A DNA stretch of 64,000 nt from Tsukamurella tyrosinosolvens (GTDB taxonomy: Bacteria > Actinomycetota > Actinomycetes > Mycobacteriales > Mycobacteriaceae). Under the pieces are notes generated by a model. That model saw only the letters and a program-made list of their open reading frames with translations. It did no database searches and was not told the DNA's origin. Every line of letters starts with the position of its first letter. The stretch's first letter is position 1. The stretch lies in NCBI RefSeq assembly GCF_900104775.1, contig NZ_FNSA01000003.1, positions 4,650,001 through 4,714,000 of the forward strand, given 5' to 3'. The position numbers and the translations under genes are program-made. Shown piece after piece: positions 5,387 through 24,602 of the stretch.

Positions 5387-5407
5387 GTCATCTCCTCGTA
5401 CGAACGC

Positions 5408-5440
5408 CAGTGCCCTTCCTGATTACCAGGAAGGGCACTG
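5408..5440 (-). terminator. 14-bp perfect hairpin after hsaB
   Basis: Arms 5408-5421 and 5427-5440 (CAGTGCCCTTCCTG and its complement) are perfectly paired around a 5-nt loop. There is no clear U-tract, as is common in actinobacteria. It should terminate, or partly attenuate, hsaADCB transcription before the AhpD-like gene. Confidence 0.75.
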
Positions 5441-5458
5441 CGCCACGGCGGGTTCGGG

Positions 5459-6018
5459 TCAGATCCAGTCGTCGCCGACGGGCCAGGTGAGGAACGAGTC
5501 CAGTGACAGGGCGCGCGGGATCGCCTCGCCGGGATCGGTCACCGTCTGCGTGTACCGGCCCTTGTAGAAGAGCAGCGGCCGTCCCGCATTCGGCGCGCTG
5601 AGCTCGAGCACCCGTCCGATGACGATGTGGTGGTCGCCGCCGTCGTGCACCGCCTCGACAGCGCAGTCGATCCAGCTGAGCGCACCGTCGAGCAGCGGCG
5701 AACCGCTGCGGGAGGGCTTCCACGCGACCGCCCCGAACTTGTCCGGGTGCCGGGAGCCGAAAACCGAGCTGACGTCCTGCTGCCCCTCGCCGAGCACGTT
5801 GACGGCGAACCGGCCGGTGCGCTCGATGGTGCGCCACGCGCCCGAGGTCTTCATGGGACAGAACAGGACCAGCGGCGGATCGAGCGACAGCGCCGAGAAG
5901 GACTGGCAGGCGAAGCCGACCGGGCCCTCCTCGTCGGCGGCGGTGATCACCGTGACGCCGGTGCAGAAGTGTCCCATCGCGGTGCGGTAGTCCAGCGGTT
6001 CGATCACGGGGGCGGTCA

Positions 6019-6019
<1 letters not shown>
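5459..6019 (-). CDS. hsaB: HsaB, flavin reductase of the 3-HSA hydroxylase
   Basis: 186 residues. The ATG overlaps the hsaC stop by one base. It is a flavin-reductase-domain protein: FCTGVTVITAADEEGPVGFACQSFSALSLDPPLVLFCP near the N-terminus (seen as TGVTVIT and SFSALSLDPPLV) and GDHHIVIGRVLEL toward the C-terminus. HsaB supplies reduced FMN to HsaA, which hydroxylates 3-HSA to 3,4-DHSA in the cytoplasm. Length and place (last of hsaA-D-C-B) match M. tuberculosis Rv3567c. A longer frame upstream is the antisense-free extension inside hsaC and is not used. Confidence 0.93.
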
Positions 6020-8989
<2,970 letters not shown>

Positions 8990-9048
8990 CTTTCCTCGCC
9001 TCCTGAAGACCCTCTGGCGAACCCCGAAGCCCGCCGCTGGATCGATAC

Positions 9049-9062
9049 TAGAACACGTTCTC
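9049..9062. promoter_or_regulatory. KstR-like operator between hsaA and kst4D
   Basis: TAGAACACGTTCTC fits TnnAACnnGTTnnA except at the final base; the core AGAAC-AC-GTTCT is a perfect inverted repeat. It lies 60 bp upstream of hsaA and 87 bp upstream of kst4D, so one KstR dimer pair could repress both directions. Confidence 0.75.
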
Positions 9063-9148
9063 ATTTTCTGACGCGAAACGCTACATCAAAGGTTCGGATC
9101 GACCTATCTTGCTGATGTAACCGGTTTCGAGACCGCCCGAGGAGAGCC

Positions 9149-10630
9149 ATGCCCGAGAGCCGCCGCCCCGTCCCGTCCGCCACCGTCTCCACCTGGGACT
9201 TCGAGGCGGACGTGGTGATCGCCGGCTACGGCATCGCGGGGGTGTGCGCCGCGATCGAGGCCGCCCGCGCGGGCGCCGACGTCCTGGTCCTCGACCGCAC
9301 CGGCGGGTGGGGCGGCGCGGCCGCCCTCTCCGGCGGATGGATCTACCTCGGCGGCGGCACACCGCTTCAGCGCGCGCTGGGCTTCGAGGACACCGCGGAG
9401 AACATGGAGACCTTCCTGACCGCCGCGCTCGGCCCGGGCGTCGACGCGGCGAAGATCCACGCGTACGCCCACGGCAGCACGGAGCACTACGACTGGCTGA
9501 CCGGCTGCGGCGTGGTCTTCAAGGAGGAGTTCTGGGGCGAGCCGGGGTGGGAGGTGCCGCACGACGAGGGCCTCGGCTACTCCGGCGGCGAGAACGCCGC
9601 CCCCTTCAACACCGTCGCGACGCCGGCGCCGCGCGGGCACGTCCCGCAGATGGCCGACAAGCGGACCGGCGTGCGCGGCGCCGGGTACATGCTGATGAAA
9701 CCGCTGGTCGAGACTGCGGAGGCGCTCGGGGTCCGCGCCGAGTACGACATCCGCGCACACGCCCTGGTGACCGGTCCGGACGGGCGCGTCGAGGGCGTCG
9801 TCGCCCGGCGGTTCGGCCAGGACGTCCACGTGCGGGCCCGACGGGGCGTGGTCCTCGCGACCGGCAGCTTCGCCTACAACGCCGCGATGATCGAGACCTA
9901 CGCGCCGCGGCTGCTCGGCCGGCCGGCCGCCGCCATCGAGGAGCACGACGGGGCCGGGATCCTCATGGCGCAGGCCGTGGGCGCGGCCCTGGCCCACATG
10001 GATGCGACGGAGGTCGCCTTCTTCGGCGACCCGCAGATGATGGCCCGCGGGATCCTGGTCAACGGCCGTGGCCAGCGGTTCATCGCCGAGGACACCTACG
10101 GCGGACGGATCGGCCAGGCCGTGCTCATCCAGCAGGACAACGCCGCCTACCTCGTCATGGACATGGAGGCGCACGAGGAGGCGCTCGCCACCGAGACCTC
10201 GACGCCGTACTTCCGGCAGCCGCCGACCTGGGCGGCAGAGACCGTGGCGGAGCTCGAATCCGACATGGGCCTGCCGGCCGGGGCGCTGACGGGCACCGTC
10301 GACACGTACAACCGGCACGCCGCCGACGGCGCCGATCCCCTGCTGCACAAGAAGCCGCAGTGGGTGCGTCCGCTCGACGGCCCCGTCGCGGCCTGGGACA
10401 TGCGGGGCTTCACCGCCGGGTTCACCCTCGGCGGGTTGCGCACGGACGCCGACTCCCGGGTGCTGCACGTCGACGGTGCACCGATCCCCGGCCTGTTCGC
10501 CGCCGGCCGGTGCACCTCGGGCGTGTGCGCGGGCGGCTACGCCAGCGGGACCAGCCTCGGCGACGGGAGCTTCTTCGGCCGACGCGCCGGCGTGTCCGCC
10601 GCAACCGAACAGTCGTTGGATTTGCAGTAA
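9149..10630 (+). CDS. kst4D: 3-ketosteroid-delta4-(5alpha)-dehydrogenase
   Basis: 493 residues. The N-terminus carries the dinucleotide-binding motif VVIAGYGIAGVCAAIEAARAG, followed by GGWIYLGGG and a C-terminal FAD-capping stretch. Three residues match the active site I recall for the Rhodococcus jostii enzyme (Tyr319, Tyr466, Ser468) with a constant offset of two: Tyr317 in EDTYGG, and Tyr464 and Ser466 in GYASGTS. The enzyme would oxidise 5alpha-3-ketosteroids to the 4-ene, feeding KstD and KshAB. It is divergent from hsaA across a KstR-like site. The alternative is a generic fumarate-reductase-type flavoprotein. Confidence 0.75.
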   Translation: MPESRRPVPSATVSTWDFEADVVIAGYGIAGVCAAIEAARAGADVLVLDRTGGWGGAAALSGGWIYLGGGTPLQRALGFEDTAENMETFLTAALGPGVDAAKIHAYAHGSTEHYDWLTGCGVVFKEEFWGEPGWEVPHDEGLGYSGGENAAPFNTVATPAPRGHVPQMADKRTGVRGAGYMLMKPLVETAEALGVRAEYDIRAHALVTGPDGRVEGVVARRFGQDVHVRARRGVVLATGSFAYNAAMIETYAPRLLGRPAAAIEEHDGAGILMAQAVGAALAHMDATEVAFFGDPQMMARGILVNGRGQRFIAEDTYGGRIGQAVLIQQDNAAYLVMDMEAHEEALATETSTPYFRQPPTWAAETVAELESDMGLPAGALTGTVDTYNRHAADGADPLLHKKPQWVRPLDGPVAAWDMRGFTAGFTLGGLRTDADSRVLHVDGAPIPGLFAAGRCTSGVCAGGYASGTSLGDGSFFGRRAGVSAATEQSLDLQ

Positions 10631-10850
10631 CTCACTGCTTCGGCGCGCTCTCACCTGGCCGTTGTCGCGATCACGAACGAATCCGCAGATCCGCTTCCGC
10701 GGACCACGGACACGGCATCGAATTCGCTGTGCGCCAATCACACTCGTGGTGGTACCGGTTCTCCCGAAAAGGAGAGCGGACTGCGAAGATGAAGGGCATG
10801 ACTGCGACAGCGTCCGCCGCGCCCGCGACCGACCGGAGCGGGTGCGCGGG

Positions 10851-11291
10851 ATGACCCACCGGGTGAATTCCTCGAGTTCCGCGCGCATCGGCGGCTTCAC
10901 CGGCCGCGTGCTCGCCATCGCCGCGGCCACCGCGCTCTGCGTCGCCGCGATAGCCGTCACCGTGAGCATGTGCAGCGGCCCGTCGACCGACCCCCGCCCC
11001 GTCGTGGCACCGTCGGGTTCGATCCCGTCGACCGAGGTCGTCCCGAGCAGCATCACCCCGTCCACGACGGCACCGTCGACCTCCGCCACCGCGAGTGGCA
11101 CGCCCTCGACGAGCGCGGCGCCCGTGCCGACGACCACCGTCGCACCGCCCGAACCCACCACGACGGCGCCCGTCCGGACCGCACCACGGGTCACGACCAC
11201 CGCGCCGGCCACACGGCGGTGCACACCGCAGCCGAAGTGGGTCTTCCGCCCCAGCACGGGCACGTACGAGCGGATCACCCTCCCCTGCTGA
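10851..11291 (+). CDS. Membrane-anchored Thr/Ser/Pro-rich protein of unknown function
   Basis: 146 residues from an ATG that overlaps the stop of a possible 21-codon upstream frame (10790-10854). One hydrophobic segment (about residues 17-40) is followed by a low-complexity stretch rich in Thr, Ser, Pro and Ala, and a C-terminus with two Cys (around RRCTPQPKW and at the final LPC) that could form a disulfide. There is no canonical lipobox (the Cys after the membrane segment is preceded by Met). The layout is that of a membrane-anchored, probably glycosylated, exported protein. I do not recognise the family. The 220 bp upstream hold no gene other than the small frame. Confidence 0.6.
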   Translation: MTHRVNSSSSARIGGFTGRVLAIAAATALCVAAIAVTVSMCSGPSTDPRPVVAPSGSIPSTEVVPSSITPSTTAPSTSATASGTPSTSAAPVPTTTVAPPEPTTTAPVRTAPRVTTTAPATRRCTPQPKWVFRPSTGTYERITLPC

Positions 11292-11365
11292 GCACCTGAA
11301 GCTCGCCCCCTGGGCGACGGCGCACGCACGGCGCCGTGGCCCGATCACCGCCGAACCCTGGCAAG

Positions 11366-11379
11366 TGGAACCTGTTCTA
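11366..11379. promoter_or_regulatory. KstR operator upstream of kstD
   Basis: TGGAACCTGTTCTA is a complete match to TnnAACnnGTTnnA. It lies 85 bp before the kstD start, inside an otherwise gene-free 172-bp gap. Confidence 0.82.
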
Positions 11380-11463
11380 GTCTATGCTGCAGTTGTAGCG
11401 CGTACCTGCTGCCCATCGGCGCAGGTGAGGCTAGAGAACTTGTTTCATCAGCGAGGAGAGTCG

Positions 11464-13185
11464 ATGACGGCGGAGACCACCGAATACGACGTGATCGTGG
11501 TGGGGAGCGGCGCAGCGGGCATGACCGCTGCGCTCAAGGCGGCGGACACCGGGCTCAGCGTCCTGGTCGTGGAGAAGGCGGCGCACTACGGCGGGTCCAC
11601 GGCCCGCTCGGGCGGCGGCGTCTGGGTGCCCGGCAACGAGTCGCTCGTCAAGGCGGGCATCCAGGACACCCCCGACGAGGCGCGCAAGTACCTGCACGCC
11701 ATCATCGGCGACGTGGTGCCGGCGGAGCGGATCGACACCTACATCGACCGCGGCCCCGAGGTCATCTCGATGGTGCACCGGATGAGCCCGCTGGAGCTGA
11801 CCTGGGTGCCGGGGTACTCCGACTACTACCCCGAGGCGCCGGGCGGCCGGGCGCACGGACGCTCCTGCGAGCCGAAGCCCTTCGACGGCAACCAGTTGGG
11901 CGACGAGCTGAAGAACCTCGAGCCCGACTACACCAAGGCCCCCATGAACCTGGTGGTCACGCAGGCCGACTTCAAGTGGCTCAACCTGATCATGCGGCAC
12001 CCGAAGGGGATCGTGCGCGCGCTGCGCGTCGGCGGCCGCTTCTACGCGGCGAAGGCTCGGGGCAAGCACCTGCTGGGCCGCGGCCAGGCGCTCATCGCCG
12101 CGCTCCGCGTCGGCCTTCAGCGCGCGAACGTCCCGCTGTGGCTGAACACCTCGCTCGTCGGACTCACCGAGGAGGGAGGCAGGGTCACCGGCGTCACCGT
12201 CGAGCGGGACGGCACCGAGCTGCGGCTCACCGCCCGGCGCGGCGTGATCCTCGCGGCCGGCGGCTTCGAGTCGAGCGCGGAGATGCGCGCGCAGTACCAG
12301 CGCCAGCCCATCGGCATCGAGTGGACCAACGGGGTGCCCGCCAACACCGGCGACGCGATCCGCGCCGGCGCGGCCGTGGGCGGCGCACTCGAGTTCATGG
12401 ACGACGCCTGGTGGGGCCCGTCCATCCAGCTGCCCAAGATGGCCTGGTTCGCGCTGTCCGAGCGCTCGCTCCCCGGCAGCGTCATGGTGAACACCGCGGG
12501 TGAGCGCTTCGTCAACGAGTCCGCGCCCTACGTCGAGGCCGTGCACGCCATGTACGGCGGCGAGAACGGCCAGGGCGAGGGCCCCGGCGAGAACGTGCCG
12601 TGCTGGCTGGTCTTCGACCAGCGCTACCGCAACCGGTACATGTTCGCCGGCCAGCCGCCGCGCCAGCCGTTGCCCAAGCGCTGGTACGAGTCCGGCAACC
12701 TGGTGCGCGCGAACAGCCTGGCCGAGCTGGCGGAGAAGATGAGCGTCCCGGCCGACGCCCTGACCGGCACCGTCGAGCGGTTCAACGGTTTCGCCCGCGC
12801 GGGACGCGACGAGGACTTCCACCGCGGCGAGAGCGCCTACGACCACTACTACGGCGATCCGCGGAACAAGCCGAATCCCAGTCTCGCGGAATTGACCACC
12901 GGACCGTTCTACGCTGCACGTATGGTCCCCGGCGATCTCGGCACGAAGGGCGGCCTGCGCACCGATGTCGCGGGCCGGGTCCGGCGCGCCGACGACACCG
13001 TCATCGACGGCCTGTACGCCGCCGGGAACACCAGCTCGCCCGTCATGGGCCACACCTACGCGGGCCCCGGCGCCACCATCGGGCCCGCCATGGTGTTCGC
13101 CTACCTCGCGGTCGAGGACATGGCCGGTAAGGAATCAGCCCCCGCGGCGGCAGCCCCCGCCCGCGCGGAAGAGGAGATCGCATGA
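11464..13185 (+). CDS. kstD: 3-ketosteroid-delta1-dehydrogenase
   Basis: 573 residues. FAD-binding motif VVVGSGAAGMTAAL and HYGGSTARSGGGVWVP at the N-terminus. The catalytic region has GYSDYYPEAPGGR (substrate Tyr), and the C-terminus has GHTYAGPGATIGPA, where Tyr532 and Gly536 correspond to the Tyr487/Gly491 pair that positions the 3-keto group in the Rhodococcus enzyme. It introduces the 1,2-double bond into the A ring; together with KshAB this opens ring B and aromatises ring A. It overlaps kshA by 4 bp and heads the operon kstD-kshA-14371-kshB-15830. It is longer than the M. tuberculosis protein mainly by an Ala/Glu-rich tail. Confidence 0.95.
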   Translation: MTAETTEYDVIVVGSGAAGMTAALKAADTGLSVLVVEKAAHYGGSTARSGGGVWVPGNESLVKAGIQDTPDEARKYLHAIIGDVVPAERIDTYIDRGPEVISMVHRMSPLELTWVPGYSDYYPEAPGGRAHGRSCEPKPFDGNQLGDELKNLEPDYTKAPMNLVVTQADFKWLNLIMRHPKGIVRALRVGGRFYAAKARGKHLLGRGQALIAALRVGLQRANVPLWLNTSLVGLTEEGGRVTGVTVERDGTELRLTARRGVILAAGGFESSAEMRAQYQRQPIGIEWTNGVPANTGDAIRAGAAVGGALEFMDDAWWGPSIQLPKMAWFALSERSLPGSVMVNTAGERFVNESAPYVEAVHAMYGGENGQGEGPGENVPCWLVFDQRYRNRYMFAGQPPRQPLPKRWYESGNLVRANSLAELAEKMSVPADALTGTVERFNGFARAGRDEDFHRGESAYDHYYGDPRNKPNPSLAELTTGPFYAARMVPGDLGTKGGLRTDVAGRVRRADDTVIDGLYAAGNTSSPVMGHTYAGPGATIGPAMVFAYLAVEDMAGKESAPAAAAPARAEEEIA

Positions 13186-14366
13186 GCAGCACCACCACCG
13201 AGGCGACAGCCCGCCTCATCGACAGCGGCACCGCGCCGACCCGGTACGCCCGCGGCTGGCACTGCATCGGCCTGCTGAAGGACTTCGCCGACGGGAAGCC
13301 CCACTCCGTCGAGGCCTTCGGCACCAAGCTCGTGGTGTTCGCGGGCGAGGACGGGAAGGTCAACGTCCTCGACGGCTACTGCCGGCACATGGGCGGTGAC
13401 CTGACGCAGGGCACCGTCAAGGGCAACGAGATCGCCTGCCCGTTCCACGACTGGCGCTGGGGCGGCGACGGCAAGTGCAAGGCCATCCCGTACGCCAAGC
13501 GCGTGCCGCTGCGGGCCCGGACCCGCACCTGGCCCACCATGATCGAGAACGATCAGCTCTTCATCTGGCACGACGTCGAGAACTCCAAGCCGCCTGCGGA
13601 ACTGGACATCCCGAAGATCGACGGGGACGTCGACGGACCCGAGTGGTCCAACTGGGTGTGGAACGAGATCATCATCGAGGGCAGCAACTGCCGCGAGATC
13701 GTCGACAACGTGGTCGACATGCCGCACTTCTTCTACATCCACTACGGCCTGCCCACGTATTTCAAGAACGTCTTCGACGGGCACATCGCCTCGCAGTACC
13801 TGGATACCAAGGGCCGCAACGACGTCACCGACATCGGGCTCTCCGGCGGCGACGACGTGCTGCTCAAGTCCGAGGCGCACTACTTCGGGCCGTCGTACAT
13901 GATCAACTACCTGCACAACGACTACAAGGGCTTCCAGATCGAGAACATCCTGATCAACTGCCACTACCCGATCGATCAGCACTCGTTCAAGCTCATGTAC
14001 GGCGTCAAGGTCAAGAAGTTGCCCGGGTTCGACGACGAGAAGTCCGACTACCTCGCCGGCAAGTTCGCCAAGAACGTGGGCCTGGGTTTCCTGCAGGACG
14101 TGGAGATCTGGAAGAACAAGACCCGCATCGACAATCCCCTCCTCTGCGAGGAGGACGGCCCCGTCTACCAGCTGCGCCGCTGGTACGAGCAGTTCTACGT
14201 CGACGCGGCCGAGGTCTCCGAGGACATGACCCAGCGCTTCGAGTTCGAGATCGACACCACCCACGCCGTCGAGGCGTGGGAGGCCGAGGTCGCACAGAAC
14301 ATCGCGCGCCAGGAGTCCGAGAAGGCCTCCGCTCAGGCGTCCTCCGACGAGACGGCGAAGGCCTGA
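13182..14366 (+). CDS. kshA: KshA, Rieske oxygenase of 3-ketosteroid-9alpha-hydroxylase
   Basis: 394 residues, starting inside the kstD stop (ATGA). The Rieske [2Fe-2S] ligands are Cys67 and His69 (YCRHMGG) and Cys86 and His89 (ACPFHDW). The mononuclear iron site follows in NCREIVDNVVDMPHFFYIH (Asp and two His). KshA hydroxylates C9 of androstadienedione-type substrates, which triggers ring opening. Electrons come from KshB, encoded two genes downstream; in most relatives kshB is elsewhere, so the close linkage here is notable. The C-terminal tail is Ala/Ser/Glu-rich. Confidence 0.95.
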   Translation: MSSTTTEATARLIDSGTAPTRYARGWHCIGLLKDFADGKPHSVEAFGTKLVVFAGEDGKVNVLDGYCRHMGGDLTQGTVKGNEIACPFHDWRWGGDGKCKAIPYAKRVPLRARTRTWPTMIENDQLFIWHDVENSKPPAELDIPKIDGDVDGPEWSNWVWNEIIIEGSNCREIVDNVVDMPHFFYIHYGLPTYFKNVFDGHIASQYLDTKGRNDVTDIGLSGGDDVLLKSEAHYFGPSYMINYLHNDYKGFQIENILINCHYPIDQHSFKLMYGVKVKKLPGFDDEKSDYLAGKFAKNVGLGFLQDVEIWKNKTRIDNPLLCEEDGPVYQLRRWYEQFYVDAAEVSEDMTQRFEFEIDTTHAVEAWEAEVAQNIARQESEKASAQASSDETAKA

Positions 14367-14370
14367 CCCC

Positions 14371-14709
14371 ATGTCCCCCACGGTGACGATGTTCGGCGAA
14401 CCGGTCACGCTGCCGTCGACGGTGTCCGATCGGGAGGGCTTCCTCACCGACGGTTTCACCCCGCTGAACTGCGGCACCTGCGGCGTCGCGGTGCAGGTCC
14501 GCAAGAACAGCCGGGAGCACACCTCGATCCAGTGGTGCGGCTCCGCGCGCGAGTGCGAGGTCTTCGCCACCGACGGCGCCGGGTCCGCCCTGCGCGCCAC
14601 CTGCCCGCGGCTGATGGAATCGATCACGCGCGCCGCCAAACTCGGCGAGGTACCCGTCCAGACGGACGTCGCCCCGCCGGACACCGACCAGGAGAAGCAG
14701 AAGAAGTGA
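14371..14709 (+). CDS. Small Cys-rich protein between kshA and kshB, function unknown
   Basis: 112 residues, starting 4 bp after kshA and overlapping kshB by 4 nt, so it is translated as part of the hydroxylase operon. The visible feature is a set of Cys residues: NCGTCGVAV, QWCGS, ECEVF and TCPRL. The spacing CxxC followed by two single Cys could bind zinc or an iron-sulfur cluster. The C-terminus is charged (DTDQEKQKK). I do not recognise a named family. Its place suggests a role with the KshA/KshB electron-transfer pair, such as cluster delivery or complex stability; this is inference. Confidence 0.75.
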   Translation: MSPTVTMFGEPVTLPSTVSDREGFLTDGFTPLNCGTCGVAVQVRKNSREHTSIQWCGSARECEVFATDGAGSALRATCPRLMESITRAAKLGEVPVQTDVAPPDTDQEKQKK

Positions 14710-15794
14710 GCATCCACCGACTACTCGTCGCCAAGGTGGTCGCGGAGACGCACGACGCGCACTCCATCGAATTCGAGGTGCCCGATGACCTGGCGGCGAA
14801 GTTCACCTACAAGCCGGGCCAGTTCCTGACGCTGCGCGTGCCGAGCGATCAGACCGGGTCGGTGGCCCGGTGCTACTCGCTGTGCAGCGCGCCCCACGAC
14901 GGCGGCCCGCTGCGCGTCGCGGTCAAGCGCACCGCCGATGGCTACGCCTCGAACTGGCTGTGCGACAACGCCACCCCCGGCATGGAGGTCGACGTGCTGG
15001 TGCCCGCGGGCATCTTCACGCCGAAGTCGGTGGACGTCGACATGCTGCTCTTCGCGGGCGGCAGCGGCGTCACGCCGATCCTCTCGATCCTGCGCTCGGT
15101 GCTGGAGACTGGCACCGGGTCCGTCGCGCTGATCTACGCCAACCGCGATGCGCAGTCGGTCATCTTCGCCTCCGCGCTCGCCGAGCTGACCCGGACGTAC
15201 CCGGAGCGCCTCGTCGTGGTGCACTGGCTCGAATCGGTGCAGGGCCTGCCCAGCGCAGCGAACCTCGCCGCGCTCGCCGCGCCCTACGCCTCCCGCGAGG
15301 TCTTCGTCTGCGGCCCCGGTCCGTTCATGGACGCGGTCTCCGAAGCCATGACCTCGCTCGGCAAGGGTCGGCGCGAGGTGCACATCGAGAAGTTCCGCTC
15401 CCTGCCGCGCAACCCCTTCGAGGTGGAGGCCGCGCAGGAGGAGGCGGAGGAGAAGGCCGCGATCGCCGAGGCGGAGGACCTCCCCGAGCCCACCGCCGAT
15501 ACCCCCGCTCCCGCGGACGACGGGGGCACCGTCACCGTCGAGCTGGACGGGACGACGACCGAGCTCGCCTGGCCCGCCGAGAATAAGCTGCTGGACGTGA
15601 TGCTCGAAGCAGGCCTCGACGCGCCCTACTCGTGCCGCGAGGGCGCGTGCAGCGCCTGCGCCTGCCGCCTCGTCGAGGGGAAGGTCGAGCTCGCCCACAA
15701 CGAGGTGCTCGACCAGGAGGACCTCGACGACGGCCTCATCCTGGCCTGCCAGTCGATGCGCCGAACGCAGGCCGTGCACATCACCTACGAATAG
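14706..15794 (+). CDS. kshB: KshB, ferredoxin reductase of 3-ketosteroid-9alpha-hydroxylase
   Basis: 362 residues from a GTG that overlaps the previous stop (GTGA). Domain order: FAD-binding beta barrel (VARCYSLCSAP), NAD-binding domain (LLFAGGSGVTPILSIL and VFVCGPGPFMDAV), an acidic linker rich in Glu and Ala (about residues 245-275), then a plant-type [2Fe-2S] ferredoxin domain with SCREGACSACACRL and a distant Cys in LACQSM. This is the class IA reductase layout of KshB; length agrees with Rv3571. It passes electrons from NAD(P)H to KshA. Confidence 0.93.
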   Translation: MSIHRLLVAKVVAETHDAHSIEFEVPDDLAAKFTYKPGQFLTLRVPSDQTGSVARCYSLCSAPHDGGPLRVAVKRTADGYASNWLCDNATPGMEVDVLVPAGIFTPKSVDVDMLLFAGGSGVTPILSILRSVLETGTGSVALIYANRDAQSVIFASALAELTRTYPERLVVVHWLESVQGLPSAANLAALAAPYASREVFVCGPGPFMDAVSEAMTSLGKGRREVHIEKFRSLPRNPFEVEAAQEEAEEKAAIAEAEDLPEPTADTPAPADDGGTVTVELDGTTTELAWPAENKLLDVMLEAGLDAPYSCREGACSACACRLVEGKVELAHNEVLDQEDLDDGLILACQSMRRTQAVHITYE

Positions 15795-15829
15795 TCCGTC
15801 CCACGACGGCCCACTGCTGAGGGAGTCCC

Positions 15830-16687
15830 ATGCCCATCGACCCGTCGGTCGCGATCGGTGCCGAGCTCGGCACCGCCGAGTTCTCCTGGAGTTCCTCGGA
15901 CGTGCTGCTCTACCAACTGGCGCTGGGCGCCGGCGCCGACCCGCTGTCGGCCCGCGAGCTGCGCTACGCCACGGAGCAGGACACCGTCGTGCTGCCGACC
16001 TTCGCCACCGTGGCGCAGAACTTCCACGCCACCGAGCCGCCGAAGGTCTCGTTCCCCGGCGTCGAGATCGACCTCGCCAAGGTCGTGCACGGCAGCCAGT
16101 CCGTCACCGCGCACCGGCCGCTGCCCACCTCCGGAACCGCTGTGGCCCGCACCAGGATCAGCGACGTGCACGACAAGGGCAAGGCCGCCGTCATCTGGCA
16201 GGAGACCGAGGTGGTCGACGGGGCCGGAGAGCCGCTGTGGACCGCGCGGTCGTCCATCTTCGCCCGCGGCGAAGGCGGTTTCGGCGGCGAGCGCGGACCG
16301 TCGGAGAAGATCGAGCTGCCCGCGCGGGACGCCGACGTGACCATCGACGTGCCGACGCTGCCCCAGCAGGCCTTGCTGTATCGGCTGTGCGGCGACCGCA
16401 ACCCGCTGCACTCGGATCCCGCGTTCGCCCGGGCCGCAGGCTTCGACGCGCCGATCCTGCACGGGCTGTGCACCTACGGGATCGTCGCCAAGGCCGTGAC
16501 CGATGCCGTGCTGGACGGCGACGCCTCCGCGGTGGGCTCGTGGTCGGCCAAGTTCGCGGGGATCATGCTGCCCGGCGAGACACTGCGCGTGCGGATCTGG
16601 CGCGACGGCGATCGTCACCTGGTGACCGCGGAGTCTGTCGAGCGCGCCGCTCCGGTGCTCGCGGACGCGGTGTTCACCGCGCGCTGA
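15830..16687 (+). CDS. MaoC-family enoyl-CoA hydratase, Rv3538/ChsH3-like
   Basis: 285 residues, ATG with GAGGGAGTCC upstream. It is a double hot-dog hydratase 2: the C-terminal repeat carries the active-site motif YRLCGDRNPLHSDPAFA followed by ILHGLCTYG, where Asp and His are the conserved hydratase residues. In M. tuberculosis the homologue Rv3538 follows kstD. The likely task is hydration of a steroid side-chain enoyl-CoA in one of the beta-oxidation cycles. It is the last gene of the kstD operon, 35 bp after kshB. Confidence 0.85.
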   Translation: MPIDPSVAIGAELGTAEFSWSSSDVLLYQLALGAGADPLSARELRYATEQDTVVLPTFATVAQNFHATEPPKVSFPGVEIDLAKVVHGSQSVTAHRPLPTSGTAVARTRISDVHDKGKAAVIWQETEVVDGAGEPLWTARSSIFARGEGGFGGERGPSEKIELPARDADVTIDVPTLPQQALLYRLCGDRNPLHSDPAFARAAGFDAPILHGLCTYGIVAKAVTDAVLDGDASAVGSWSAKFAGIMLPGETLRVRIWRDGDRHLVTAESVERAAPVLADAVFTAR

Positions 16688-16761
16688 GCCGGCTGTAGCG
16701 CCCCACGGCGATGCCGGATCGCAGTCCCCCGATCGGTTCGTGCTGTGTCATGACCGGCTCC

Positions 16762-16829
16762 GTGAATCCACGGCTGAGGTGAACAGACGGCCAGATCCGG
16801 CCTCCTGTCGAGCTGAGCCGTGGATTCAC
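16762..16829. terminator. Inverted repeat between convergent genes
   Basis: Two perfect 14-bp arms, GTGAATCCACGGCT (16762-16775) and its complement (16816-16829), flank a 40-nt loop that can itself pair (GGCC..GGCC). It lies in the 160-bp gap between the convergent MaoC and SnoaL-like genes, so a bidirectional terminator is the simplest reading. Confidence 0.55.
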
Positions 16830-16847
16830 AGACCGAGGGCCGGGCGT

Positions 16848-17258
16848 TCAGACAGGGCGGGCGGTGGCCATGGCGCGGTCGACCTCCCAGAAGGCGCGGA
16901 GCGCCACGATCTTCCCCGCGTCATCGACCTTGTAAGTGAAGACGCCCTCGGCGTCGATGACGTGTCCGCCGATGACGGTGCGGATGAGGCCGGTGAACGC
17001 CACCTCGTTGCCGCAGGCGAAGCCGTCGCCGAAGAGGAACTCCAGCGACTCCGCGACGCCGATGGTCTTGTCGTAGAAGGCCGCGATCTCCTCGCGACCG
17101 TGGTGCCCCTTGCCCTCGGGGTCGAAGCCGGAGGGGCCGACGGGGTCCTCGACCACGCCGTCGGCGGCGAACAGGTCGAGCCACTCCTCCTTGCGGCGGC
17201 CGCTCGCCGCGGCCTGCGAGGCGCGGCCGGCCAGGACTGCGGGGTGATCGTCCTTCAT
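16848..17258 (-). CDS. SnoaL/steroid delta-isomerase-like (NTF2 fold) protein
   Basis: 136 residues from the ATG at 17258 (MKDDHPAVLAGRAS). The pattern KEEWLDLFAADGVVEDPVGPS and HHGREEIAAFYDKTIG is typical of NTF2-like isomerase/cyclase proteins, with acidic residues lining the pocket. In a steroid cluster a 5(6)-ene to 4(5)-ene 3-ketosteroid isomerase role is attractive but unproven. It lies 8 bp downstream of the LLM oxidoreductase gene, so the two form an operon divergent from the FadE28-FadE29 fusion. Confidence 0.75.
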   Translation of the reverse strand: MKDDHPAVLAGRASQAAASGRRKEEWLDLFAADGVVEDPVGPSGFDPEGKGHHGREEIAAFYDKTIGVAESLEFLFGDGFACGNEVAFTGLIRTVIGGHVIDAEGVFTYKVDDAGKIVALRAFWEVDRAMATARPV

Positions 17259-17266
17259 GAGCCCTC

Positions 17267-18133
17267 CTAGAACTTGCTGATGACGGAATCGGCGTAGCGG
17301 CGCAGGTGGTCGATCTTCGGCTGGAGCGGCTCGGTGTCGGGCCCCACCTGGTACGGCAGCCGGAAGCCGACGATCACGTCGGTGACGCCCTTGTCCTCGA
17401 GTCGCTTGATGCCATCCACGGTGTAGGCGTCCAGCGAGATCACGTGGATCTCGAACTCCTTCTTGTCGTGCTCGGCGCGCAGTTCGTCGATCCGCGCGAG
17501 CATCCGGTCGAGCTCCTCGCCGTCGCCGCCGGCGTGCATCCAGCCGTCGCACAGCCGCACCGCGCGGCGCAGCGCCGCGTCCGCATGGCCGCCGACCAGG
17601 ATCGGTAGCGGCTCCGTGGGCACGGGGGAGATCTTGATCGACGGGATGTCGAAGAACTCGCCGTGGTACTCGAAGTACTCACCCGTCGACAGGCCCTTGA
17701 TGATCTCGATGCACTCGTCCATCCGCTTGCCGCGGCGCGCGAAGGGCACGCCCATGATCTCGAAGTCCTCGGGCCACGGGCTGATGCCCACCCCGAGCGA
17801 GAAGCGGTTCCCGCTCAGGGAGGCCAGCGACGCCGCCTGTTTCGCGACCAGCACCGGCGGGCGGATCGGCAGCTTCAGGACGAAGGGCGTGAAACGGAGG
17901 GTCTTCGTGGACGCGGCGAGGGCCGACGCCAGCACGAAGGTCTCGACGAACTCCTTGCCGTCGAGGAACTCCCGGCTCCCATCGGGCGTGTACGGGTACG
18001 TCGAATCGGAGACCTCGGGATACGCGATGCTGTCGGCGACGCACATACTGTGGTAGCCGGCCTCCTCCGCCGCCTGCGCGAGCGGGACGTAGTACGACGG
18101 ATCCGTCATCGCCTCGGCGTACGTGAATCGCAT
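17267..18133 (-). CDS. LLM-class (probably F420-dependent) oxidoreductase
   Basis: 288 residues. I chose the ATG at 18133 (MRFTYAEAMTDPS), preceded by GAAAGGGTGACC; the upstream frame to 18199 crosses the KstR site. Luciferase-like TIM-barrel motifs are present: GVGISPWPEDFEIMGVPFARRGKRMDE (seen as GVGISPWPEDFE) and PILVGGHADAALRRA. Related actinobacterial enzymes use coenzyme F420. In M. tuberculosis an LLM protein (Rv3520c) also lies in the sterol region. The substrate is unknown. It is divergent from the fused dehydrogenase across a perfect KstR operator. Confidence 0.85.
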   Translation of the reverse strand: MRFTYAEAMTDPSYYVPLAQAAEEAGYHSMCVADSIAYPEVSDSTYPYTPDGSREFLDGKEFVETFVLASALAASTKTLRFTPFVLKLPIRPPVLVAKQAASLASLSGNRFSLGVGISPWPEDFEIMGVPFARRGKRMDECIEIIKGLSTGEYFEYHGEFFDIPSIKISPVPTEPLPILVGGHADAALRRAVRLCDGWMHAGGDGEELDRMLARIDELRAEHDKKEFEIHVISLDAYTVDGIKRLEDKGVTDVIVGFRLPYQVGPDTEPLQPKIDHLRRYADSVISKF

Positions 18134-18184
18134 GGTCACCCTTTCGTCGAACTGCTTGCGAGCGTTCACTCCACTTGCTAAAAA

Positions 18185-18198
18185 TAGAACACGTTTCA
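18185..18198. promoter_or_regulatory. KstR operator in the LLM/fused-dehydrogenase divergent promoter
   Basis: TAGAACACGTTTCA is a full match to TnnAACnnGTTnnA. It stands 52 bp before the LLM gene and 35 bp before the fused dehydrogenase, so it can control both. Confidence 0.85.
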
Positions 18199-18232
18199 CC
18201 GTTTGTACGCGGTATCGAGATCAGGAGTGCGC

Positions 18233-20512
18233 GTGGACTTCCGTCCGGACGAGAACCAGGTGGCCGTCGCCGGCCTCGCGGCCGACGTGCTCGGGCACGC
18301 CGCCGCGCGCGAGAGCGGAGGCGCCGACACCGGGGACGCCTGGCGCACGACCTGGGCGGACCTCGCTCGGGCCGACCTCCTCGGCCTCCCGGCGCCCGAG
18401 AGCCTCGGCGGCGCCGGGCTCGGTGCCGAGGAGGTGGCCGCGGTGCTCACCGAGGCCGGCCGGCTCGCGATCGCCGCGCCGGTGCTGCCCGCCCTCGCGC
18501 TGGGCGTCCTGCCCGTCGCCGCGCACGGCACCGCCGAGCAGCGCGAGCGACTCCTGCCCGCGGCCCTGACCGGGGACGAGCTCATCGTGGGTGCGCTGGG
18601 CGAGGCCGGGGCCGCCGTGCCCGCGGCCCCGTCGACCCGTGCGGTGCGGACGGCCAGCGGCTGGGCGCTGACCGGTCGGAAGGTCGCCGTGGGCTACGCG
18701 CAGCACGCCGCGCACCTGCTGGTCAGCGCCGCCACGGACGACGGCGCCGCCGTCTTCGTGGTGCCCGCGTCCGCGCCCGGCGTCAGCGTCGCGCCCAGCC
18801 CCACGTCGACGGGCGCGCCGGAGGGCACCGTCGACCTCGCGGGCGTCGAGGTACCGGCGGAGGCCGTGCTGGGCGGGTCGACCGACGGGACCGTCGCGCA
18901 GTTCGTGCGGGAGTGCGGGCTGGCCGGCGCGGCCGCCGTCGCCGACGGTGCGCTCGCCGGCGCCCTCGCCCTGACCGTCGACCACCTGCGCAAGCGCGAG
19001 CAGTTCGGGCGCCCCCTGGGGGCCTTCCAGGCCGTGGCGCAGCAGGTCGCCGACGTCTACATCGCCTCCCGCACACTGCATCTGGCGGCGGCCTCGGCCG
19101 CCTGGCGGATCGGCACCGGCTCGCCGGCCGAGGAGGCCACCGCGCTCGCGGCGCACTGGCTGGCCGCGGAGGCACCGTCGGCCGTGCGGACCTGCCACCA
19201 CCTGCACGGCGGCATCGGCGTGGACGCCACGTACCCGCTGCACCGGTTCTACTCGGCGATCAAGGACCTCACCCGGTTCGTGGGCGGCGTCCCGCAGACG
19301 GTGCGGGCTCTGGCGACCGCGCACCGCGACGACGCGACGAGCGCGGACGAGTCGGGCCGGTTCCTCGCGCTGACCACCGCGCAGCGCGCTCTGCAGGCCG
19401 AACTGCGCGACTACTTCTCGACCCTGATGACGCCGGAGGAGCGCACCGCGATGCTGGTGCAACGGCACGGCGACGTGTTCCGGGACGTGGTGCTGCGCAT
19501 GGGCCGCGACGACCGGCTCGGCGTCGGCTGGCCCACCGAGTTCGGCGGCAAGGGCTTCGGCCCGATCGAGCAGTACCTGTTCGTCAACGAGGCGGCCCGC
19601 GCCGATGTGCAGCTGCCCTCGGTCACGCTGCAGACCGTCGGGCCGACGCTGCAGGCCTTCGGCACCGAGGAGCAGAAGGCGAAGTTCCTGCCGAAGATCC
19701 TCTCGGGCGAGGTGCACTTCGCGATCGGTTACACCGAACCCGAGGCGGGCACCGACCTCGCCTCGCTGCGCACCACCGCGGTCCGCGACGGCGACCACTA
19801 CGTGGTGAACGGCCAGAAGATCTTCACCACCGGCGGCCACGACGCCGACTACGTGTGGATGGCCGTCCGCACCGATCCCGATGCGCCCAAGCACAAGGGC
19901 ATCTCGATCCTCATCCTCGACACCAAGGACCCCGGCTACAGCTGGACGCCGATCATCACGGCCGACGGCGCGCACCACGTGAACGCCACCTACTACAACG
20001 ACGTCCGGGTACCGGTCGACATGCTCGTCGGGGTGGAGAACGAGGGCTGGAAGCTCATCACCACCCAGCTCAACCACGAGCGGGTCATGCTCGGACCGTC
20101 GGGCCGGATCGGCGCGCTGTACGACCGCGTCGACGCCTGGGCGCACGAGCAGGAGCTGCTCGGCGAGCCCGATGTCGCCGAGGCGCTCGCCCGGGTGCGG
20201 GCGGCCGAGCTCATCAACGAGCTGCTCAACTGGCAGGTCGCGGCCGCGGAGGCGGGCGGGCCCGTCGACGTCGCGGACGCCTCGGCCACCAAGGTCTTCG
20301 GGTCCGACCGGATCCAGGGCCTCACCGCCCTCCTCGAGGAGACCGTCGGGACGCACGGCGATCCGGCCGAGCCGGCCACGGCGGAGCTGCTGCACTGGCT
20401 CGACGTGCAGGCCAAGCGGCACCTGGTGCTGACCTTCGGCGGCGGCGTCAACGAGATCCAGCGCGAGCTCATCGCCCTCATGGGCCTGCAGCTGCCGCGG
20501 GTGCCGCGATGA
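18233..20512 (+). CDS. Fused FadE28-FadE29 (ChsE1-ChsE2) acyl-CoA dehydrogenase
   Basis: 759 residues from a GTG 5 nt after AGGAG. Two acyl-CoA dehydrogenase domains lie in one uninterrupted frame. Residues ~1-365 read like FadE28 (KREQFGRPLGAFQAVAQQVADVY, CHHLHGGIGVDATYPLHRFY). Residues ~380-759 read like FadE29 (LGVGWPTEFGGKGFGPIEQY, FAIGYTEPEAGTDLASLRTT, ending LPRVPR). A short linker rich in Thr, Asp and Ser joins them. In M. tuberculosis these are two adjacent genes whose products form an alpha2-beta2 enzyme that dehydrogenates 3-OPC-type side-chain CoA esters; gene order before chsH2-chsH1-ltp2 is the same. FadE34 is another known fused dehydrogenase, but the second half resembles FadE29 much more. 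Confidence 0.9.
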   Translation: MDFRPDENQVAVAGLAADVLGHAAARESGGADTGDAWRTTWADLARADLLGLPAPESLGGAGLGAEEVAAVLTEAGRLAIAAPVLPALALGVLPVAAHGTAEQRERLLPAALTGDELIVGALGEAGAAVPAAPSTRAVRTASGWALTGRKVAVGYAQHAAHLLVSAATDDGAAVFVVPASAPGVSVAPSPTSTGAPEGTVDLAGVEVPAEAVLGGSTDGTVAQFVRECGLAGAAAVADGALAGALALTVDHLRKREQFGRPLGAFQAVAQQVADVYIASRTLHLAAASAAWRIGTGSPAEEATALAAHWLAAEAPSAVRTCHHLHGGIGVDATYPLHRFYSAIKDLTRFVGGVPQTVRALATAHRDDATSADESGRFLALTTAQRALQAELRDYFSTLMTPEERTAMLVQRHGDVFRDVVLRMGRDDRLGVGWPTEFGGKGFGPIEQYLFVNEAARADVQLPSVTLQTVGPTLQAFGTEEQKAKFLPKILSGEVHFAIGYTEPEAGTDLASLRTTAVRDGDHYVVNGQKIFTTGGHDADYVWMAVRTDPDAPKHKGISILILDTKDPGYSWTPIITADGAHHVNATYYNDVRVPVDMLVGVENEGWKLITTQLNHERVMLGPSGRIGALYDRVDAWAHEQELLGEPDVAEALARVRAAELINELLNWQVAAAEAGGPVDVADASATKVFGSDRIQGLTALLEETVGTHGDPAEPATAELLHWLDVQAKRHLVLTFGGGVNEIQRELIALMGLQLPRVPR

Positions 20513-21492
20513 CCGCCCCGGACACGACCGCGGCCGTGCTCGCCGCGGCGGAACGGATCCGCGCGCTCGGCGATTCCGCGCCGCGCGCCGGCCGGGACCC
20601 GGTGAACCAGCCGATGATCAACAACTGGACCGAGGCCATCGGCGACACCAACCCGCTGTACGCGGACCCGGCGTTCGCGGAGCAGTCGGTGTTCGGCGGG
20701 CCCGTCGCGCCGCCCGCGATGGCGCAGGTGTGGTCGATGCGCGGCCTGCACGGGGAGCGCGCCGGCGACGACCCGCTGGGCCTCATGACCGAAGCGCTGG
20801 ACGATCTCGGCTTCACCTCGGTCGTCGCGACCAACTCGGATCAGACCTACCACCGGCACGTGCGGCCCGGCGAGGAGATCACCGCATCGTCACGACTCGA
20901 GGACGTCGTGGGCCCCAAGAAGACCGGGCTCGGCGAGGGCTGGTTCTTCACGACGCGCACGCTGTGGCGCGTGGGCGACGAGGTGGTGGCCGAGATGGTC
21001 TTCCGCATCCTCAAGTTCCGCCCGCCGTCGGCCGATGCGCCTGAGGCCACCGTGCCCGACGCCGGGCCGAGCGGCCGCATCGTCGACGCCCCCGCCTACG
21101 CGGGAGGCGTCCTGCGGCCGGTGATGTCGCGCGACACCGCCTTCTACTGGGAGGGCGCCAAGCTCGGGGAGCTGCGGATCCAGCGCTGGGGGGAGACGCT
21201 CCGGCACCCGCCGGGGCCGATGGACCCCGGGGGCGACCTGGGGCTCGTCCCCGACTACGCGGTCTCCCCCGGCACCGGCACCGTCTTCAGCTTCGTGGTG
21301 CATCACCACCCCAAGGTCCCCGGCAAGCGCCTGCCCTTCGTGGTGGCACTCGTGGAACTCGATGAGGGCGTGCGCGTACTCGGCGAACTCATCGACGTGG
21401 ACCCCGCGGGTGTCGAGATCGGCATGCCCGTGCAGAGTGTGTTCCTCCGCGTTGACGACGACCTCACCCTGCCCGCTTGGGAGGCACGATGA
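20509..21492 (+). CDS. chsH2: ChsH2, hydratase subunit with MaoC and DUF35 domains
   Basis: 327 residues, ATG overlapping the previous stop (ATGA). The N-terminal half is a MaoC hot-dog domain (INNWTEAIGDTNPLYADPAFA, YHRHVRPGEEI). The C-terminal part is DUF35/OB-fold-like (SRDTAFYWEGAKLGELRIQRWG), without a CxxC zinc knuckle. ChsH2 pairs with ChsH1 to hydrate the 3-carbon side-chain enoyl-CoA, and its DUF35 domain docks the aldolase Ltp2. The gene order fused dehydrogenase-chsH2-chsH1-ltp2 is that of the M. tuberculosis igr operon. Confidence 0.92.
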   Translation: MTAPDTTAAVLAAAERIRALGDSAPRAGRDPVNQPMINNWTEAIGDTNPLYADPAFAEQSVFGGPVAPPAMAQVWSMRGLHGERAGDDPLGLMTEALDDLGFTSVVATNSDQTYHRHVRPGEEITASSRLEDVVGPKKTGLGEGWFFTTRTLWRVGDEVVAEMVFRILKFRPPSADAPEATVPDAGPSGRIVDAPAYAGGVLRPVMSRDTAFYWEGAKLGELRIQRWGETLRHPPGPMDPGGDLGLVPDYAVSPGTGTVFSFVVHHHPKVPGKRLPFVVALVELDEGVRVLGELIDVDPAGVEIGMPVQSVFLRVDDDLTLPAWEAR

Positions 21493-21905
21493 CGTACCCC
21501 ACCACCCTGCGCGCTGGCGCGGTCGCCGTCGGCACCGCGTTGCCGCCCATGACGATCCACGCGAGCACCACCTTCGTGGCGACCACCGCCATCGCGACCC
21601 GCGACTTCCAGGACGTGCACCACGACCGCGACGCGGCGCACGCGCGCGGAAGCAAGGACATCTTCGTCAACATCCTCACCGACAACGGCCTGGTCCAGAA
21701 GTACGTGACCGACTGGGCGGGCCCGGAGGCCTTCGTGCGGAACATCTCCATCCGGCTCGGCGCGCCCTGCTACGCGGGCGACACTCTGCACTTCGCGGGC
21801 TCCGTCACCGCGGTCGACGGTGCCGCCGTCACCATCGCCGTGACCGCGAAGGACAGCCTGGGCGACCACATCTCGGGCACCGCGACCGTGGTGTTGCCGG
21901 CATGA
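21489..21905 (+). CDS. chsH1: ChsH1, MaoC-like hydratase subunit
   Basis: 138 residues, ATG overlapping the chsH2 stop. It is a single hot-dog domain with the hydratase signature TRDFQDVHHDRDAAHARGSKDIF; the Asp-Val-His-His stretch carries the catalytic His expected of the active subunit in the ChsH1-ChsH2 heterotetramer. It ends with an ATGA overlap into ltp2. Confidence 0.92.
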   Translation: MTYPTTLRAGAVAVGTALPPMTIHASTTFVATTAIATRDFQDVHHDRDAAHARGSKDIFVNILTDNGLVQKYVTDWAGPEAFVRNISIRLGAPCYAGDTLHFAGSVTAVDGAAVTIAVTAKDSLGDHISGTATVVLPA

Positions 21906-23074
21906 GCGGGCTGAGCGGCAGGGCCGCGATCGCCGGGATCGGCGCCACCGAGTTCTCGAAGGACTCCGGTCGCAGCGAGCTGCGCCTGGCCGTCGAGTGC
22001 GTCCGCGCGGCGCTCGACGACGCCGGGCTCACGCCGCAGGACGTCGACGGGTTGGTGACCTTCACGATGGACACCAACTCCGAGATCGCTGTGGCCCGCG
22101 AGTTGCAGATCCCCGAGCTGAAGTTCTTCAGCCGCATCAACTTCGGCGGCGGCGCAGCCGCCGCGACGGTGCAGCAGGCGGCGATGGCGGTCGCGACCGG
22201 CGTCGCCGACGTGGTGGTGGCCTACCGCGCCTTCAACGAGCGGTCCGGGCACCGGTTCGGCCAGGTCTCCAACGCCGCCGCGCAGCAGGTGAACACGAAC
22301 GGCATCGACAACGCCTTCCACTACCCCGCCGGGATCGCCACGCCGGCGGCCACCGTCGCCATGGCCGCGCGCCGCTACATGCACGACTTCGGCGCCACGA
22401 GCGAGGACTTCGGCCGCGTCGCCGTGCTCGACCGGGCGCGGGCCGCGACCAACCCGCAGGCCTGGTTCTACGGCAAGCCGATCACACTGGAGGAGCATCA
22501 GGCGTCGCGGTTCGTCGCCGAACCGCTGCACCTACTGGACTGCTGCCAGGAATCGGACGGCGGTGTGGCGCTGGTGATCACGAGCGCCGAGCGCGCCCGC
22601 GACCTGAAGCAGACCCCCGCGGTGATCGCCGCCGCGGCGCAGGGCAGCGGCCCCGACCAGTACGTGATGACCAGCTACTACCGCGACGGCCTCACCGGGC
22701 TGCCCGAGATGGGCGTCGTCGGCGGGCAGCTGTGGGCGCAGGCGGGGATGGCACCGTCGGACATGGACCTGGCCGTGCTCTACGACCACTTCACCCCGTA
22801 CGTGCTCATGCAGCTCGAGGAGCTGGGCTTCTGCGGGCGGGGCGAGGCACCGTCGTACCTGGCGGCCGGGACCTGCGAGCTCGACGGGGCCCTCCCCCTC
22901 AACCCGCACGGCGGGCAACTGGGCGAGGCGTACATCCACGGGATGAACGGCATCGCCGAGGCGGTGCGCCAGCTGCGCGGCACGGCGGCCAACCAGATCG
23001 CGGGCGCCGCGCGCGCCGTGGTCACCGCCGGGACCGGGGTTCCGACCAGCGGTTTGGTACTGAGTAAGGTCTGA
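21902..23074 (+). CDS. ltp2: Ltp2, retro-aldolase of the thiolase superfamily
   Basis: 390 residues, thiolase fold without condensing activity, of the lipid-transfer-protein group: AAIAGIGATEFSKDSGRSELRLA at the start, VVVAYRAFNERSG, LYDHFTPYVLMQLEELGFC and LPLNPHGGQLGEAYIHG near the end. It cleaves the 17-hydroxy-pregnenone-CoA formed by ChsH1-ChsH2 to androstenedione and propionyl-CoA, working in complex with the ChsH2 DUF35 domain. Coupled to chsH1 by an ATGA overlap, and 3 bp before the thioesterase gene. Confidence 0.92.
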   Translation: MSGLSGRAAIAGIGATEFSKDSGRSELRLAVECVRAALDDAGLTPQDVDGLVTFTMDTNSEIAVARELQIPELKFFSRINFGGGAAAATVQQAAMAVATGVADVVVAYRAFNERSGHRFGQVSNAAAQQVNTNGIDNAFHYPAGIATPAATVAMAARRYMHDFGATSEDFGRVAVLDRARAATNPQAWFYGKPITLEEHQASRFVAEPLHLLDCCQESDGGVALVITSAERARDLKQTPAVIAAAAQGSGPDQYVMTSYYRDGLTGLPEMGVVGGQLWAQAGMAPSDMDLAVLYDHFTPYVLMQLEELGFCGRGEAPSYLAAGTCELDGALPLNPHGGQLGEAYIHGMNGIAEAVRQLRGTAANQIAGAARAVVTAGTGVPTSGLVLSKV

Positions 23075-23077
23075 CGG

Positions 23078-23704
23078 ATGAGCGAGTCGGATGCGGACAA
23101 GGTGGACCTGCGGAGCGAGATCCCGCGCTTCAGGGAGGCCACACCGCCGCCCGCGTTCGGCGAGTTCGTCGAGAACATGCGGCGGCTGCAGGACCTCGCG
23201 GTCAGCGTCGACGCCCCCGACGAGGTGTACGCCGCGGCCCGCGACCGGGCCGCCGAGCTCGTCGAACTGCTGGCGCCCCACGCCGCGCGCGAGGGCAAGG
23301 GGCCCGCGAACCGCAGCATGTCGCTGCCCGGTCGCGGCAGCCTGCTGATGCCGCCCTTCCGCGTGGAGAAGTTCGACGAGGAGTCCGTCGTCGCCCGCGG
23401 CGTGCTGCGGCGCTACCACCTGGGCGGCGGCGGGGTCGCGCACGGCGGCGTGCTGCCCCTGATCTTCGACGACAACTTCGGCAACGTGGTCTACGCGGCG
23501 AAGCGGCCCATCAGCCGCACCGCGTACCTGCACGTCAACTACCGCAAGGTGACACCGCTGGACGTGCCGCTCGTCATCGAGGGCAAGGTCGACCGCGTGG
23601 ACGGACGGAAGACGTTCATCACCGCGCGCCTCACCGAGGAGGACGGCACTCTCCTCGCCGACGGCGAGGGCCTCATGGTGCAGCTCCTGCCCGGCCAGCC
23701 CTGA
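23078..23704 (+). CDS. PaaI/YbgC-type acyl-CoA thioesterase
   Basis: 208 residues, 3 bp after ltp2, so it is the last gene of the operon. The hot-dog thioesterase motif LGGGGVAHGGVLPLIFDDNFG is followed by RTAYLHVNYRKVTPLDVPL. The N-terminal ~80 residues are helical and charged. A role in recycling CoA from stalled steroid CoA-thioesters is plausible from context. The exact substrate cannot be read from the sequence. Confidence 0.85.
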   Translation: MSESDADKVDLRSEIPRFREATPPPAFGEFVENMRRLQDLAVSVDAPDEVYAAARDRAAELVELLAPHAAREGKGPANRSMSLPGRGSLLMPPFRVEKFDEESVVARGVLRRYHLGGGGVAHGGVLPLIFDDNFGNVVYAAKRPISRTAYLHVNYRKVTPLDVPLVIEGKVDRVDGRKTFITARLTEEDGTLLADGEGLMVQLLPGQP

Positions 23705-24588: not shown

Positions 24589-24602
24589 TGTAACACGTTC
24601 CA
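24589..24602. promoter_or_regulatory. KstR operator upstream of the Mce-associated gene
   Basis: TGTAACACGTTCCA matches TnnAACnnGTTnnA completely and lies in the 157-bp gap between two minus-strand genes. It is best placed to control the orphan Mce-associated gene. Confidence 0.82.

Follow-up and report, generated by a model that had tools for sequence, protein, structure and literature searches.

Does the single reading frame that precedes chsH2, chsH1 and ltp2 in Tsukamurella tyrosinosolvens encode both FadE28 and FadE29, the two acyl-coenzyme A (CoA) dehydrogenase subunits of the steroid side-chain enzyme ChsE1-ChsE2, in one chain? The frame lies in a stretch of 64,000 nucleotides (the window: contig NZ_FNSA01000003.1 of assembly GCF_900104775.1, positions 4,650,001 to 4,714,000 of the forward strand), and all coordinates are those of the window unless stated otherwise. 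Cholesterol degradation is known in some Tsukamurella (PMC4810484). Judging from the sequence, the protein is very probably a single-chain ChsE1-ChsE2, which would have one flavin adenine dinucleotide (FAD) site per chain and act as a dimer of chains. The gene and its parts are as follows.

18233..20512, + strand: fused fadE28-fadE29 (chsE1-chsE2) gene, 759 amino acids, 79.4 kDa (frame, Pfam, tree, RefSeq identity)
18233..19288, + strand: N half, FadE28/ChsE1-type, residues 1-352, without catalytic Glu; R255, Q257, F258 and, from H323, HLHGGIGVD
19289..19366, + strand: linker, residues 353-378; residues 367-376 modelled with a confidence below 50, former fadE29 start without a start codon
19367..20509, + strand: C half, FadE29/ChsE2-type, residues 379-759; catalytic Glu616 in QLNHER, codon GAG at 20078-20080

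One frame for two acyl-CoA dehydrogenase domains

The frame runs on the + strand from a GTG at 18233, immediately preceded by AGGAG, to a TGA at 20510-20512. Pfam places Acyl-CoA_dh_N, Acyl-CoA_dh_M and Acyl-CoA_dh_1 each in two stretches of the 759-residue protein, which makes two acyl-CoA dehydrogenase domains. The seam (residues 353-378) has no stop codon, and the window gene lacks a start codon at about residue 377, where fadE29 used to begin; the start-like codons between residues 345 and 411 are only GTG 350, GTG 357, ATG 399, ATG 407 and GTG 409. The GC content of the linker by codon position, 0.77/0.58/0.96, is coding-like. The frame, Pfam and the seam codons thus confirm the initial annotation, made from the sequence alone, that two complete dehydrogenase domains share one frame without a stop. 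Since ChsE1-ChsE2 is made of two subunits from two genes and the frame here is uninterrupted, we class the protein as a variant of ChsE1-ChsE2 and not as an ordinary member. A search of this genome at E ≤ 1e-80 matched only this gene and one FadE26-like gene.

The coding sequence (CDS) is identical across 2280/2280 bases to a CDS of T. tyrosinosolvens NCTC13231 (NZ_LR134448.1), which RefSeq holds as a single CDS for the protein WP_068741645.1, named 'acyl-CoA dehydrogenase'. That record is 'plasmid 6' of NCTC13231 (18.7 kb; our locus L092) and carries hsaABCD, kstD and the fused gene. Its genes sit in a 4.9 Mb contig here (window approximately 5000-21500), and 'plasmid 6' looks like a chromosomal piece mislabelled as a plasmid.

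Some fused Gordonia-type genes (L073, L075, L135) still have a Met where fadE29 used to start (DGMFID), from which a separate FadE29 is conceivable. This internal Met is lost in the window gene.

Descent of the halves and their active-site residues

The halves were placed in a tree of 51 sequences, namely the genome's other dehydrogenases, PDB sequences and igr-type pairs, the igr reference rows being picked by gene order. The N half of the window gene lies inside a group of 13 igr-type N sequences and the C half inside a group of 13 igr-type C sequences, each group consisting of 8 sequences from unfused pairs, 4 from other fused genes and that of the window gene and having a support of 100/100. 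The N half thus belongs with the FadE28 orthologues of igr operons and the C half with the FadE29 orthologues. Other placements were rejected by approximately unbiased (AU) tests: the N half with the N half of a FadE34-like protein (p 0.0011) or with FadE27 (p 0.0039), and the C half with the FadE34-like C half (p 0.00029) or with FadE26 (p 0.00038).

Active-site residues were tallied over 140 loci, which represent 124 distinct sequences, some genomes being present twice. The catalytic Glu (Glu616 in the window) is found in 140/140 C halves, and LNxER in 0/140 N halves. RxQF occurs in all 140 N halves and in none of the 140 C halves; R255, Q257, F258, H323, G326, G327 and D331 are kept in 140/140 loci, and HxHGGxGxD is always in the N half. 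We take RxQF and HGG to be FAD-contacting residues. Because the Glu is found only in the C half and RxQF only in the N half, which also has the HGG, one chain holds one full set of site residues. In steroid heteromeric acyl-CoA dehydrogenases the catalytic Glu is in one subunit only and FAD is at the dimer interface, and CasC, which has two fused domains, carries the base in its C-terminal domain and needs the N-terminal domain for FAD (PMC8399759). The halves share out these residues in the way published for ChsE heterotetramers and for CasC (PMC8399759). The assignment of the first half to FadE28 and of the second to FadE29, which had been proposed at the outset, is thus borne out by the tree, the AU tests, the operon order described below and the complementary residues.

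In the mechanism that we propose, the C half would supply the catalytic base, Glu616, and the N half, without a base, would contribute RxQF and HGG to the FAD site. The site would be formed by the two halves of one chain rather than of two chains, and a pair of chains would correspond to the α2β2 heterotetramer. Being fused, the halves would have a 1:1 stoichiometry. A structure model from 27 fused sequences had a mean predicted local distance difference test score (pLDDT) of 88.5 and a predicted template modelling score (pTM) of 0.89, and its only longer stretches with a confidence below 50 were residues 367-376 and 734-736; the model points to a defined packing of the two domains. A single-sequence model (pLDDT 39.6) was not usable.

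Among solved chains, phmmer puts Tcur3483/Tcur3481 and M. tuberculosis ChsE4/ChsE5 closest. The closest solved folds, with the N and the C half each compared and a VIA-align fold list that covers mostly residues 1-370, are 6WY8/6WY9 (Tcur3481-Tcur3483) and 4X28 (ChsE4-ChsE5). Both are heteromeric steroid dehydrogenases that consist of two chains, and in the tree neither pair falls within the igr groups.

The linkers of 39 measured fused loci (some genomes counted twice) are 26-41 residues long and Ala/Asp-rich, with genus-specific differences; 34 further fused loci lay beyond the reach of the anchors used. The initial annotation had suggested that the fusion docks ChsH1-ChsH2-Ltp2 as a metabolon. 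We found no support for this idea, the linker being of low confidence at residues 367-376 and varying between genera.

The operon and the rival readings

The surroundings of the fused gene are given below.

18185..18198, + strand: KstR-like operator TAGAACACGTTTCA, 34 bases 5' of the start codon, exact pattern match
20509..21492, + strand: chsH2, MaoC/FAS1-dehydratase-like region and ChsH2 C-terminal OB fold (PF01796 OB_ChsH2_C)
21489..21905, + strand: chsH1, MaoC-like (frame and domain match)
21902..23074, + strand: ltp2, thiolase-fold aldolase (frame and domain match)
11366-11379 and 24589-24602: further KstR-like boxes, exact (pattern search of the window)

The fused gene stands ahead of chsH2, chsH1 and ltp2; the chsH2 ATG overlaps the stop codon of the fusion, chsH2 overlaps chsH1, and chsH1 overlaps ltp2. 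The KstR site consensus is presumably TNNAACNNGTTNNA. This KstR-like palindrome has three exact matches in the window against 0.05 expected by chance, and the pattern is also found just 5' of the fused gene in Tsukamurella loci. The gene order is that of the M. tuberculosis igr operon (PMC8708139), as the initial annotation had stated. A 4HBT-type thioesterase is located at 23078-23704 on the same strand, closely 3' of ltp2; PMC8708139 does not list it with the genes of the operon.

Several points weigh against our reading of the protein as a single-chain ChsE1-ChsE2. The N halves are weakly conserved, with a best identity of 51%, and the inner branching of the N halves is not settled by the tree. 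The labels FadE28 and FadE29 rest on operon order and on orthologues from M. gordonae, M. rhodesiae and others, not on M. tuberculosis sequences. The comparison with FadE34 was made with this genome's FadE34-like protein, which is named by its two-domain architecture, and not with a named FadE34 or CasC. The structure model is of one chain without FAD and was built from an alignment of fused proteins only. Finally, the near relative Tcur3481-3483 prefers C3 bile-acid esters, so that a bile-acid C3 substrate is possible.

This last point leads to the rival that survives best, namely a fused ChsE1-ChsE2 that has a bile-acid C3 CoA ester as its main substrate, like Tcur3481-3483 and CasL/CasN. 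Tcur3481/3483 are among the best solved matches, and C3 chemistry is common to the cholate and cholesterol routes (PMC8399759). We nevertheless consider it unlikely, since the tree places Tcur3481/3483 apart from the igr groups and the order of two acyl-CoA dehydrogenase genes, chsH2, chsH1 and ltp2 is that of igr, whereas in R. jostii casL and casN, the two cholate C3 dehydrogenase genes, are split by casM (locus tags; PMC8399759).

A second rival, very improbable in our view, is a native fusion of the FadE34/ChsE3/CasC type that acts on a C5 side chain and merely resembles FadE28-FadE29. FadE34 is a two-domain steroid dehydrogenase. The window protein shares with this type the natural two-domain architecture and a catalytic Glu in the C-terminal domain only, as in CasC, which acts on C5 and not on shorter side chains (PMC8399759). 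Against this, the fused gene heads chsH2-chsH1-ltp2, and the genome has a separate FadE34-like frame. This second two-domain acyl-CoA dehydrogenase (locus L039, 5058-7424) has 789 amino acids and is FadE34-like by architecture; NCBIfam gave it no match over the cut-off. Both halves of the fusion are on a different branch of the tree from the halves of this architecture-named protein, and the AU tests reject their grouping. A grouping with a FadE34-type fusion, which had been named beforehand as evidence that would overturn the FadE28-FadE29 assignment, was thus looked for with the genome's own FadE34-like protein and did not appear.

The weakest rival, an assembly or sequencing error that deleted a stop or a frame break between two ordinary genes, deserves next to no credence and is refuted in practice by the agreement of 15 assemblies: frame breaks are known in such assemblies (G014 has one in the N half), but 15/16 genus genomes, the window's included, are stop-free through both halves, the seam is in frame in 16/16 though its length varies, and the RefSeq record agrees with the CDS base for base. 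The 16th genus genome, Tsukamurella sp. PLM1 (G014; loci L022 and L097; 83% complete), has its frame break within the N half, away from the seam, possibly as a sequencing error of that assembly.

Recurrence of the fusion and its meaning

The spread of the fusion was examined in related genomes, as the initial annotation had advised, and the fusion was found in several genera. The 557 relatives were ranked by their match to the fused protein and the best 80 make up the named loci, a choice biased towards fused and in-frame pairs. The 39 fused among the 80 are therefore not a frequency; 27 are in frame with an intervening stop and 14 in different frames. The fused loci comprise Tsukamurella (4/4, L097 from PLM1 with its N-half frame break being fused at the seam), Dietzia (4/4), Nocardioides (18/18, one with only the end of the N half), Marmoricola (3/3), Aeromicrobium (2/2), Pimelobacter (1/1), Actinocorallia (1/1), Gordonia (2/6), Rhodococcus (2/3) and two metagenome-assembled genomes without a genus, one of them partial. 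No fusion was found in Mycobacterium and Mycolicibacterium (0/11), Amycolatopsis (0/10), Actinomadura (0/9), Saccharopolyspora (0/2), Hoyosella, Prauserella and Haloechinothrix (together 0/3) or one unplaced actinobacterium. The ChsE1-ChsE2 of the Mycobacterium and Rhodococcus igr types has orthologous halves, the same operon order and the same split of Glu and FAD-site residues, but is encoded by two genes; all 11 named Mycobacterium/Mycolicibacterium pairs are in frame with a stop, in a scan that favours in-frame pairs, and all 10 named Amycolatopsis pairs are in different frames.

Genome surveys covered the family, the class and the order. In the family survey, 73/401 genomes matched at E ≤ 1e-190, a threshold that favours fused and in-frame genes. 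Stop-free through both halves were 49 of the 73 (15 of this genus, 20 of g4, 6 of g9, 5 of g6 and 3 of g10); of the rest, G014 is broken in the N half, the match in G029 is cut off by the end of its contig, a single in-frame stop interrupts 19, and 3 are essentially a C half. The class survey (E ≤ 1e-195, with the same bias) matched 20/394 genomes, 6 with one stop and 14 without, the latter from family f41 (12, one a partial match) and this genus (2). In the order survey (E ≤ 1e-165), 106/397 genomes matched, mostly with the C half alone, and fused genes were a minority.

For the history of the fused state, 151 loci were classified. Two without a FadE28-type match in place (L037, L038) left 149; dropping L026, L152 and L157, which have no usable N half (only its end in L152 and L157), and the copies L009 and L092 left 144, and removal of near-identical loci left 85. 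Four loci (L031, L103, L128, L144) have practically no N half, with a stop near the N-terminus by start call; they were placed by the C half and are outside the 140-locus tally. N-terminus coordinates of Nocardioides are uncertain. On the 85-locus tree the fused state needs at least 8 fusion or fission changes, each of them required by a branch with good support (bootstrap 5%-95%: 8-9), and these 8 would be a mix of gains and losses. A single fused clade, that is, one origin for the 38 fused rows among the 85, was rejected (p 4e-7). The initial annotation had attributed the fusion to this lineage; this was wrong, since it also occurs in Dietzia, Nocardioides and relatives, some Gordonia and some Rhodococcus.

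The likely source of the fused gene is a pair of adjacent fadE28 and fadE29 genes that lost the intervening stop, through one substitution where the genes abut in frame and through an insertion or deletion where they do not. In several mycobacteria-like loci the genes abut as TAAATG, in frame, so that the pair would become one gene if this single stop were lost. The Rhodococcus loci L116 and L119 retain the usual FadE28 tail LDLVGA followed by an extra linker, and their fusion looks, from this arrangement, like a gain. It is possible, though rather doubtful, that the fusion is convergent and selected, several actinobacterial lineages having independently fused the genes because subunits that pair slowly or unequally hold back the removal of the side chain; the chain may also hand its product to ChsH1-ChsH2-Ltp2. 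Alternatively, the fusion may be a neutral ratchet in an obligate pair.

Our searches of open PMC papers turned up no account of an igr pair fused in this way, and an earlier account in primary papers is possible. Two-domain steroid dehydrogenases are already known (CasC, PMC8399759), and the fusion is a recurrent variant of a known enzyme. For annotation it carries a warning, in that a fused gene may score as 'fadE29 present, fadE28 missing'. A table for Nocardioides simplex lists chsE2 (fadE29), and fadE28 and chsE1 are absent from the main text of that paper (PMC7807495); the locus of Pimelobacter simplex ATCC 6946 (L134) is fused. In Saccharopolyspora (L098, L099) a fadE28-type open reading frame lies directly 5' of fadE29, in frame. 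For S. hirsuta, however, the name chsE1 has been given to F1721_33645, whose locus tag is far from these genes (PMC8708139); this is possibly a misassignment.

The fused, in-frame-with-stop and frame-shifted relatives form a natural series on why subunits fuse, and a single-chain ChsE1-ChsE2 would spare co-expression when this heteromeric enzyme is studied.
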